NCBI GenBank assembly: GCA_024684455.1
Contig: JAIKWU010000076.1
Span: 25,645 to 89,644, forward strand
Length of the DNA stretch: 64,000 nucleotides
Source of the DNA: Bacteroidaceae bacterium
GTDB lineage: Bacteria > Bacteroidota > Bacteroidia > Bacteroidales > Bacteroidaceae
Reading direction: 5' to 3'
Within the stretch, counting starts at the first letter, position 1, and every line of letters begins with the position of its first letter. The notes under the pieces were generated by a model. The model did not search any database. It saw only the letters and a program-made list of their open reading frames with translations, and was not told the DNA's origin. Shown in pieces: positions 2,921-61,384 of this stretch. Position numbers and translations under genes: made by a program.

Positions 2921-3004
2921 ACGCTAAGCACTTGGAAAAATCACGCTAAGCACTTGGCGTTCGAACGCTAAGCACTTGGCGTGTTTTTTCCAAGTGCTTA
3001 GATG
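2921..3004. repeat. Palindrome cluster A1: four 18-bp units at 22-bp period
   Basis: Unit starts 2921, 2943, 2965, 2987; core CCAAGYRCTTRG, e.g. ACGCTAAGCACTTGGCGT, with 4-bp spacers. Confidence 0.92.
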
Positions 3005-28465: not shown

Positions 28466-29440
28466 ATGACAAGCATTCAGCACATCAGTCAACCCGTCAG
28501 CGAGGAATTGGATTTGTGTCGTCAACGTTTTGATTCGTTCATGACGTACAACAACGTGCTTCTGAACGAAGTGCTTCAGCGTGTGGCCAGCAGAAAAGGC
28601 AAAATGATGAGGCCGCTGCTCACTCTGTTGAGTGCAAAATTGCTCGGTGAAATCGGCGAAAACACCATTCTCGCAGCCCTTACTTTTGAGTTTTTCCATA
28701 CGGCTTCGCTCATTCACGACGACATCGTCGATGAAAGCGGAGTACGGCGTGGTGAAACCTCTGTCAACGAAGCATACAACAACAAGGTGGCAGTCCTCGT
28801 CGGCGACTTCATTCTTGCCAACTCGCTGGACACCGCCTCACAGGTAAATGATCCCCGTCTCGTTGCCATCCTCAGCAAAACGGCCAAACATCTGGCAGAC
28901 GGTGAACTGCTCCAACTGCATAATATCGAAAATCGGGAACTCTCGACGTCAGTCTATTTCGAAATCATCAAGAGAAAGACGGCTGCCCTGTTTGCTGCCT
29001 GTGCCGAGGCTGGAACGATGTCAGTCACCAACCAATCAGCAGACATCGAACGCCTTCGTCAATTTGGTGAAATTGCAGGCATTTGTTTCCAGATTCGCGA
29101 CGACATTTTCGACTATGTTTCAGGCAGCGAAATCGGCAAACCAACAGGCAACGACTTACGAGAAGGTAAGGTCACTTTACCGCTTTTACATGCCCTAAAT
29201 GTTACAAATGATGCACAAATGTTACATTTAGTGCACATGGTCAAAGAGGGTAGGGCAGACAACAGCCACATCGCCACCCTTGTAAAATTTGCAGTGAATC
29301 ATGGAGGTATTGAGCACGCAAAACAGACGATGATACACTATGCCGAGTTGGCACATCAACTGCTAAACAACTACCCCGACTCTCCTGTTCGCCAGGCACT
29401 GCACGACTACCTTGACTATGTCATTTCGCGCAGCCACTAA
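28466..29440 (+). CDS. Polyprenyl synthetase family protein
   Basis: LIHDDIVDESGVRRG and QIRDDIFDYVS Asp-rich motifs. Confidence 0.95.
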   Translation: MTSIQHISQPVSEELDLCRQRFDSFMTYNNVLLNEVLQRVASRKGKMMRPLLTLLSAKLLGEIGENTILAALTFEFFHTASLIHDDIVDESGVRRGETSVNEAYNNKVAVLVGDFILANSLDTASQVNDPRLVAILSKTAKHLADGELLQLHNIENRELSTSVYFEIIKRKTAALFAACAEAGTMSVTNQSADIERLRQFGEIAGICFQIRDDIFDYVSGSEIGKPTGNDLREGKVTLPLLHALNVTNDAQMLHLVHMVKEGRADNSHIATLVKFAVNHGGIEHAKQTMIHYAELAHQLLNNYPDSPVRQALHDYLDYVISRSH

Positions 29441-29463
29441 CTCCCAATAATTTTTCCATTTTC

Positions 29464-29547
29464 GTACCACCGCAGTGAAACAATAGTACCACCGCAGTGG
29501 TACAACTGTTTCAACGCAGTGGTACAACTGTTTCAGCGCAGTGGTAC
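29464..29547. repeat. Palindrome cluster B1: four 18-bp units at 22-bp period
   Basis: Units at 29464, 29486, 29508, 29530: GTACCACCGCAGTGAAAC, GTACCACCGCAGTGGTAC, GTTTCAACGCAGTGGTAC, GTTTCAGCGCAGTGGTAC; spacers AATA, AACT, AACT. Confidence 0.95.
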
Positions 29548-29570
29548 GAAAATTTCATAGAAGTGACCCA

Positions 29571-30533
29571 TCAGAAGAACTTCACCTCCTCGCCCGTCAC
29601 CTCGCTCAGCAACTTATTAGCGAGTGAACTGGTACCAAGACGAAGCCACTGATTGGTCAGCCAACGTTCACCTAGAACTTCTTTCACAATTGTATAATAG
29701 GTGAGCGCATCCTCAACCGTCTTCATGCCGCCGGCAGGCTTGAAACCCACCTGAATACCAGTCTTTTCAAAGTATTCCTTAATGGCCTGGCACATTACAT
29801 AAGCAGCAAACGGAGTGGCAGCAGGTTCCAATTTACCTGTAGAGGTCTTGATGTAGTCGGCACCTGCATACATTGACAAAACACTGGCTTTCTTGATATT
29901 AGCAGCGGACTTCAGGCAACCTGTCTCCAAAATGACTTTCATCTTCTTAGGCCCACAAACGGCTTTCAGTTCACTGATTTCGTCTGCCACACCTTCGTAA
30001 TCCCCAACAAGGAACTTTCCGACTGGCATCACGATGTCAATCTCGGTGGCTCCGTCTTTTAAAGCCAATGCTGTTTCGGCAATTTTAACCTCCAAGAACG
30101 ACTGCGATGAAGGGAAACAAGCACTTACGCAAGCAATCTCTACGTTTTCATTTTCAAGCGTATCGTGACAGATTTTTGCAAAGTTCGGATAGACACACAC
30201 CGTAGCGACATGGCCGAGTTCTGGATATTTGTCATCAAACTCGTTGACTTTCTCCACAAACTTCAGCACACTGTCCTCGCTGTCGGTTGTCTTCAGGGTG
30301 GTCAGTTCAACACTGTTTAGCAGAAACTTCTTGACTTCCAGCGTGTTATTCTCTTGCAGATGCTTCGAAAGAAGAGCATCAACTTCTTTCTGTACCTGAG
30401 CATCGTCCAGATCGCAATTGTACAATGCAAGTGCCTGTTCGTACTTCGAGGTCATAGCCTCGTCCTCATGATGATGGTGGCCGCAGTGGCATTCCTCACT
30501 GTGCTCATGGTGGTGATGATGATCGTGAATCAT
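29571..30533 (-). CDS. deoC: Deoxyribose-phosphate aldolase, optionally with His-rich N-terminal extension
   Basis: VCVYPNF, EIDIVMPVGKFL, KVILETGCL, KTSTGK; N-terminus MIHDHHHHHEHSEECHCGHHHH. Confidence 0.93.
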   Translation of the reverse strand: MIHDHHHHHEHSEECHCGHHHHEDEAMTSKYEQALALYNCDLDDAQVQKEVDALLSKHLQENNTLEVKKFLLNSVELTTLKTTDSEDSVLKFVEKVNEFDDKYPELGHVATVCVYPNFAKICHDTLENENVEIACVSACFPSSQSFLEVKIAETALALKDGATEIDIVMPVGKFLVGDYEGVADEISELKAVCGPKKMKVILETGCLKSAANIKKASVLSMYAGADYIKTSTGKLEPAATPFAAYVMCQAIKEYFEKTGIQVGFKPAGGMKTVEDALTYYTIVKEVLGERWLTNQWLRLGTSSLANKLLSEVTGEEVKFF

Positions 30534-32916: not shown

Positions 32917-32932
32917 TGTTCCACGTGAAACA
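32917..32932. other. parS-like site (15/16)
   Basis: TGTTCCACGTGAAACA, one mismatch to TGTTTCACGTGAAACA. Confidence 0.7.
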
Positions 32933-33522: not shown

Positions 33523-33538
33523 TGTTTCACGTGAAACA
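33523..33538. other. parS: parS centromere site (perfect 16-bp consensus)
   Basis: TGTTTCACGTGAAACA. Confidence 0.88.
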
Positions 33539-35549: not shown

Positions 35550-35633
35550 CATCCAAGTGCTTGGAAAAATATCTCCAAGTGCTTAGCGTACGAACGCCAA
35601 GTGCTTAGCGTGAATTTTCCAAGCACTTGGAGG
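35550..35633. repeat. Palindrome cluster A2: four 18-bp units at 22-bp period
   Basis: Unit starts 35550, 35572, 35594, 35616; cores CCAAGTGCTTGG, CCAAGTGCTTAG, CCAAGTGCTTAG, CCAAGCACTTGG. Confidence 0.92.
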
Positions 35634-46401: not shown

Positions 46402-46507
46402 GTACCACCGCAGAGGTACTTTAGTTTCACTGCGGTGGAACTTTTGTATCGGCGCAGTGAAATTTTAGTACCACCGCAGTGAAACAACTGTACCACTGCG
46501 GTGAGGA
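46402..46507. repeat. Palindrome cluster B2: five 18-bp units at 22-bp period
   Basis: Starts 46402, 46424, 46446, 46468, 46490: GTACCACCGCAGAGGTAC, GTTTCACTGCGGTGGAAC, GTATCGGCGCAGTGAAAT, GTACCACCGCAGTGAAAC, GTACCACTGCGGTGAGGA; degenerate sixth half-unit TTGGTAC. Confidence 0.95.
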
Positions 46508-46701
46508 CACTTTGGTACAAAAGTTTATTGTTCAGGAATGATGGATTTCCTCCATTGCTTTGCGTATATCGAACTCACCTTAAATAATAATTATATTTTT
46601 TTCTTTTTTAAATTCTTTATTGATGTTGTTAAGTTGTTGATAGTGCGGAAAACTTTTTACGTATTTCTTTGGTCGTTCAGTTATTGTTTTGAGAGTCAGA
46701 G

Positions 46702-61207: not shown

Positions 61208-61315
61208 GCAGTTGAAACTCAAAATTTAACTTAAATTCCCATAAATATAACTTAAATTTATGTAAATTTAACTTGAATTTGTATAAACATAAGTTAAATT
61301 TTGAGTTTCAACTGC
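61208..61315. repeat. Palindrome cluster C: four 17-bp units at 21-bp period within a perfect 25-bp inverted repeat
   Basis: Arms GCAGTTGAAACTCAAAATTTAACTT (61208-61232) and AAGTTAAATTTTGAGTTTCAACTGC (61291-61315); units centred 61230, 61251, 61272, 61293. Confidence 0.92.
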
Positions 61316-61318
61316 AGT

Positions 61319-61384
61319 GTGGTGATGTTTGTGCTGGAGCGTGGTGATGTTTGTGGTGGAGAGGTGTGATTTTTTTGGTGCCGT
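61319..61384. repeat. 22-bp direct repeat, about three copies
   Basis: GTGGTGATGTTTGTGCTGGAGC / GTGGTGATGTTTGTGGTGGAGA / GGTGTGATTTTTTTGGTGCCGT. Confidence 0.8.

Follow-up and report, generated by a model that had tools for sequence, protein, structure and literature searches.

What is the run of four near-palindromes that separates two convergent genes of a Bacteroidales genome, and what keeps its sequence in place? Within the stretch of DNA that we analysed (64,000 nucleotides, hereafter the window), positions 29464..29547 hold an array, B1, of four 18-bp dyads with a period of 22 bp (units at 29464, 29486, 29508 and 29530; like all arrays described here, it is given without strand). It is flanked by a polyprenyl synthetase gene (28466-29440, + strand) and, convergent with it, a DeoC aldolase gene (29571-30533, - strand); the array lies 23 bp from the stop codon on both sides. 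Genes were called with a simple codon-usage method, which makes start positions, and the gene context in some cases, approximate. Each unit is laid out as 7+CGCA+7, the 4-bp linkers read AATA, AACT and AACT, and arms of two types, GTACCAC and GTTTCA(C/A/G), are mixed across the units. An earlier note on this DNA had claimed four units at an exact 22-bp period between convergent ispB-like and deoC genes, arm-CGCA-arm units with two interchangeable arm types, and symmetric outer flanks. All of this is borne out by the letters, the flanks being TTTTC (29459..29463) and its inverted copy GAAAA (29548..29552). The expression "four 18-bp palindromes" is accurate for unit 2, the sole full palindrome with 7/7 arm pairs, but generous for units 1, 3 and 4, which pair 5, 4 and 4 of 7. 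GTGAAAC of unit 1 was said to pair elsewhere than within its own unit, and the predicted fold indeed places it opposite the GTTTC arm of unit 4.

If dyad symmetry were the only criterion, B1 would be unremarkable (24/36, the best of 60 simulated windows scoring 23); it is certain because it is repeated across the genome. In the window, a degenerate unit pattern matched 23 times, compared to 6.2 ± 2.7 times in shuffles, none of which reached 23. The adjacent DeoC carries an N-terminal extension rich in His and Cys (MIHDHHHHHEHSEECHCGHHHHEDEA), and alignments to it begin at residue 1-3 in G019 (RUG733), G084 and G045 and at 28-29 in five other congeners.

B1 belongs to a scattered repeat with about 150 copies (families A and B taken together) in this Bacteroidales genome. 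Across the assembly from which the window comes (98 contigs totalling 2.79 Mb, 87.6% complete), single degenerate B units gave 107+92 matches versus 2+1 for a reversed control, and blastn detected tens of arrays, most with four good units and all with units 22 bp apart. A sequence-blind scan was applied to the window, to 400 kb of the genome and to parts of related genomes, scoring runs of four dyads for every period between 16 and 40; it revealed an excess at period 22 and its alias 33, and at no other period. The scan also uncovered a second family, A, with ACGCYAA-GYRC-TTRGCGT units, mostly four per array, that follow the same 7-4-7-4 grammar as B. Family A arrays are found in the window at 2921..3004 (ACGCTAA.gcac.TTGGCGT type, four units, 22-bp period) and, between mnmG/gidA and a GH127 gene, at 35550..35633, a gap that contains a TTTCGTC-type array in the sister species RUG733. 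The 29 A and 21 B arrays counted in 864 kb correspond, for a whole genome, to roughly 100 and 50-70 arrays, respectively, and two to four arm alphabets occur side by side in one genome.

A subfamily, B2, comprises 15 copies of 88-94% identity at unrelated sites. The window copy (46402..46525) has, besides its four units, a divergent fifth one and an end module that terminates in TTTGGTACAAA. At most sites B2 is embedded in a longer repeat of about 200-400 bp, whereas the window copy and one other are bare (131 bp), which is evidence that B2 spread as a unit. As regards the features of a MITE, its copies start with TTTGTWCCA and finish with TGGTACAAA at unrelated sites, with neither a target duplication nor a parent element seen. 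Many B arrays bear an extra end module, GTACCAA-N-TTTGGTAC. The assembly is fragmented because contigs end at B2 copies, as seen for contigs C76, C24 and C95 (L074, L075 and L071).

Of the 301 genomes searched from the same bacterial family, 8 contained a two-unit B pattern, with 47 matches in the genome of the window, 53 in RUG733 and 0 or 1 in eleven other congeners. Family A units matched 532 times in the former, 23 times in RUG733, 8 times in G084 and never in five congeners. When a collection of 85,000 genomes was searched with a core-free pattern, at least 104 stretches were obtained, where simple arithmetic predicts about 0.5 by chance. Among the matches listed, nearly all belonged to Bacteroidota (Parabacteroides, Bacteroides, Phocaeicola, Prevotella, Mediterranea, Porphyromonas, Chryseobacterium and Kaistella) and one to Cryobacterium. 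The same 22-bp geometry occurs with other letters in Prevotellaceae, Bacteroides, Parabacteroides, Phocaeicola, Porphyromonas and Flavobacteriales. Each lineage has its own arm alphabets, some of which have multiplied into many intergenic gaps. A phage origin was rejected, since no viral contig of IMG/VR carried the two-unit pattern. At three loci (L237, L282 and L235), non-palindromic 22-bp direct repeats run into palindromic arrays from upstream.

Which features of the arrays are constrained? Read unconditioned on spacing, the distance to the next unit was 22 bp in 81/82 cases for A and in 63/63 close pairs for B in the genome of the window. T-family distances in RUG733 were all 22 or 44 bp (B distances in that genome were partly selected by the search pattern), and the junctions of hybrid T/B arrays were in phase in 11/11 cases within 70 bp. 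From one unit to the next, linkers differed at 49% of bases and the 18-mers at 25%. Variability was compared within three sets of near-identical queC-queF arrays: arms were variable at 1/168, cores at 10/48 and linkers at 5/36 (jointly 15/84; arms versus cores and linkers, p 3e-7), and flanks at 31/180 (arms versus flanks, p 7e-9). Arm positions that do not pair were conserved as well (0/44 variable for local pairing, 0/24 for the long hairpin), and lengths did not change within these sets except for one whole unit lost in L347 (versus L348). The conserved letters are thus the arms, while cores and linkers (4 bp each) vary freely in sequence at a fixed length. These results support the family of modular arrays with exact 22-bp spacing and interchangeable arms that the earlier note had proposed. 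It had named independent arms together with no preference for 22-bp spacing as evidence against its claim; the arms did prove independent, but the preference for 22 bp is near absolute.

Every array tested folds as one long hairpin on both strands (z -7 to -10), which follows from the alternating-arm grammar, and the folds of B1 are very stable (-46.7 and -58.4 kcal/mol, z about -9). The arrays could accordingly be read as RNA elements, each a long hairpin (stem of about 44-46 bp) or several hairpins in succession, which would lie at the 3' end of an mRNA or between the genes of an operon and terminate transcription or stabilise the upstream mRNA. Besides the folds, this would agree with the enrichment of B-type arrays of other genomes in convergent gaps (22/62 versus 35/164 for all gaps including them), with conserved stems and variable loops, which are also typical of RNA hairpins, and with the position of B1 23 bp from both stops: in this ispB-deoC gap, G084 has an ordinary terminator only and RUG733 a TTTCGTC array beside an ordinary terminator. 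Yet we consider it unlikely. The covariation check suggested by the earlier note was run on 29 B and also on 26 A arrays and gave no positive covariation at any hairpin register or centre; dyad-related positions within units were instead anti-complementary (B positions 8-11, z -9.6; A positions 9-10, z -7.9). The better-pairing strand showed no sense-strand bias, and arms are conserved where unpaired. Despite the stable folds, these covariation, strand and unpaired-position tests led us to reject hairpins, local or long, kept by selection, and leave the idea of an RNA with arms pairing between units unsupported. Nor does G-U wobble on the sense strand account for the arms, given the lack of strand bias and mismatches of the C-C/G-G kind (TCCACAC/TCGACAC). 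The arrays have no consistent U-tract (B1 contains one marginal terminator site, in unit 2 on the - strand), they also occupy operon-internal and divergent gaps (11/28 for family A), and the same operon gap in relatives can be without an array. An intrinsic terminator, that is, a hairpin with a U-tract at transcript ends, was therefore rejected, and the earlier statement that B1 is not a simple terminator stands. A structured RNA family was likewise dismissed, as covariation was lacking in any register and Rfam gave no match at threshold; the hits below threshold were to miRNAs only, and their letters or geometry do not fit. The arrays' avoidance of perfect self-complementarity would fit a shielding of large palindromes against SbcCD-type clearance, which has been argued for REP heterodimers (PMC3733652).

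Turning to position, we compared gene pairs with RUG733 (45 shared gaps; its sample was partly picked for B arrays, inflating its array count). RUG733 had an array of another alphabet in the same gap for 5/5 arrays of our genome, as against 5/40 gaps without such an array (Fisher 2e-4 with all 45 included; 0.006 when only those of at least 100 bp are counted); in one example, A units are replaced by TTTCGTC-CGCA-GACGAAA in RUG733. This is what one would expect of ancestral regulatory or nucleoid-structuring sites with fixed positions and little or no mobility, the letters of which track a fast-evolving binding protein, and invariant spacing and arm conservation suit such sites too. But arrays come and go, operon interiors included. 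Three RUG733 arrays lie in tandem gaps that measure only 11, 22 and 23 bp here, and the queC-queF gap of another genus is 15-76 bp in most genomes, whereas 9/10 such gaps exceeding 200 bp carry an array of period 22, with several different alphabets represented. An exact empty site with target duplication was not seen, the flanks of the compared species being too diverged. Together with 20-fold copy-number differences among congeners, several alphabets within one genome and near-identical B2 copies at unrelated sites, this gain and loss makes immobile ancestral sites improbable. We give very little credence to a minisatellite by-product, a functionless 22-bp tandem repeat growing and shrinking by slippage, even though same-parity arms are alike within an array, the close relatives L347 and L348 differ by exactly one unit, and, in one Prevotellaceae genome, arrays stand next to plain 22-bp direct repeats. 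Unit number is near-constant at four in the genome of the window, spacing is invariant despite the linker divergence, different alphabets are fused in phase, and dyads are kept across lineages; the conservation of arms relative to flanks already strains the slippage reading.

On balance, we lean towards B1 being a copy of a dispersed, non-coding intergenic REP/BIME-like repeat that acts as double-stranded DNA, as a lattice of half-sites for a predicted protein, and that has spread by copying. This reading is favoured by the fixed spacing, the conserved arms (unpaired ones included), the lack of covariation and of strand bias, the gain and loss in operons, the lineage-specific multiplication, the near-identical B2 copies at unrelated sites and the geometry shared across Bacteroidota in other letters; the 5/5 correspondence with RUG733 counts against it, as it could mean inherited positions rather than insertion. 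The lattice would consist of 7-bp half-sites whose orientation flips every 11 bp (arm-4-arm-4), with 22 bp per dyad and, here, usually four dyads. Each dyad may be bound by a protein dimer or by two subunits of an oligomer, and the fixed spacing would bring successive subunits onto nearly the same helix face, favouring cooperative binding. Because two helical turns of B-DNA span 21 bp rather than 22, a series of four units would not be perfectly phased, which weakens this picture. The arrays would spread as non-autonomous elements aided by a putative protein, and effects on nearby transcription or mRNA could arise as side effects rather than being what keeps the sequence. It also counts against this reading that neither the neighbours of the longest arrays nor searches for Y1 genes yielded a binding protein or transposase for the arrays; the genes beside the longest arrays are ordinary, with nothing consistent among them, save a Y1 gene in RUG733. 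A bolder extension, which we put forward tentatively and with more doubt than confidence, is a lattice common to the Bacteroidota: a putative conserved assembly would read half-sites at an 11-bp pitch, its letter preference shifting fast between lineages, with genome-wide array sets rewritten or replaced in the same slots between genes and the 22-bp geometry fixed.

A literature search found no description of such 22-bp dyad arrays. We file them as dispersed extragenic palindromic repeats, REP/BIME-like, of a variant that we have not seen described; they show the many dispersed copies, extragenic location, imperfect palindromes and species specificity of this broad class. REPs and REPINs (RAYT, TnpA-REP, Y1 HUH transposase) are short extragenic palindromes with tens to hundreds of copies and species-specific letters (PMC3116915, PMC3733652), features that the arrays share along with imperfect symmetry and several families per genome. 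However, the arrays form a strict lattice, usually of four dyads at 22 bp, whereas REPs are singlets or doublets. A GTAG/CGTC tag at the palindrome foot is missing, as linkers and flanks are mostly AAAA, AACT and GAAA; CGTC occurs in 5 A linkers, and GTAG is absent from the common ones. No Y1 (HUH) transposase was detected in the genome of the window (87.6% complete), nor in the complete genomes G248 and G292, both of which have queC-queF arrays. With Y1_Tnp missing in these carriers and the tag absent, RAYT mobilisation and REP membership were rejected. RUG733 has one Y1_Tnp gene, with a motif, YIINQKQHH, that resembles subclass 1.2, described as not REP-associated (PMC6006769). A family A array of nine units (contig C6, L153 1165-1990) lies 125 bp from this gene. 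RUG733 has about five A arrays, and the proximity may be accidental or may hint at the way in which A arrays spread. In G404, a Y1 transposase gene (L360) has nearby single hairpins, CCAGGGT-gtaa-ACCCTGG, of the same 7-4-7 size; these look like an ordinary REP/RAYT locus and do not resemble the period-22 arrays that this genome also carries.

BIMEs of Enterobacteria, at least as outlined in PMC2817692, are mosaics of regularly spaced palindromic units, and the mixing of unit types in one array is a likeness; the array units are far shorter (18 bp at 22 bp) and alternate at the level of half-sites. BrickBuilt of Porphyromonas gingivalis, a minisatellite-MITE with tandem 23-nt repeats and predicted stem-loops (PMC4596501), is also a dispersed intergenic tandem repeat of Bacteroidota. 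In contrast to the arrays, its repeat (AGAYCATARTATCCTCTCRTRTG) is 23 nt long and non-palindromic, with up to 18 or more units and IS-like terminal repeats, and it was rejected because the published consensus shares neither letters nor length with them (PMC4596501). The half-site of parS (ParB), GTTTCAC/GTGAAAC, equals one B arm, but parS half-sites abut, those of the arrays lie 4 bp apart, and GTACCAC, ACGCCAA and TTTCGTC arms do not match. Identity with parS was thus rejected, and the window has true parS sites at other positions: a perfect one (TGTTTCACGTGAAACA) at 33523-33538, between an apt-like gene and mnmG/gidA, and one with a single mismatch at 32917-32932, overlapping the start of a uvrC-like gene.

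The arrays fill a good share of intergenic gaps in some species and are present in common gut genera. They confound term-seq, small-RNA and regulatory-motif surveys of Bacteroidota by mimicking terminators or structured RNAs, and their phylum-shared geometry, with letters that differ between sister species, points to a putative DNA-binding or mobilising machinery. The window also contains other repeats. At 61216-61316, an AT-rich repeat with inverted ends (CAGTTGAAACTCAAAATTTAACTTA ... TAAGTTAAATTTTGAGTTTCAACTG) and an internal period of 21/42 has a similar copy at C15 near 85200 and is probably a third dispersed repeat family. Directly after it, at 61312-61380, follows a G-rich 22-bp direct repeat (CTGGAGCGTGGTGATGTTTGTG) that has the same period and no dyad.
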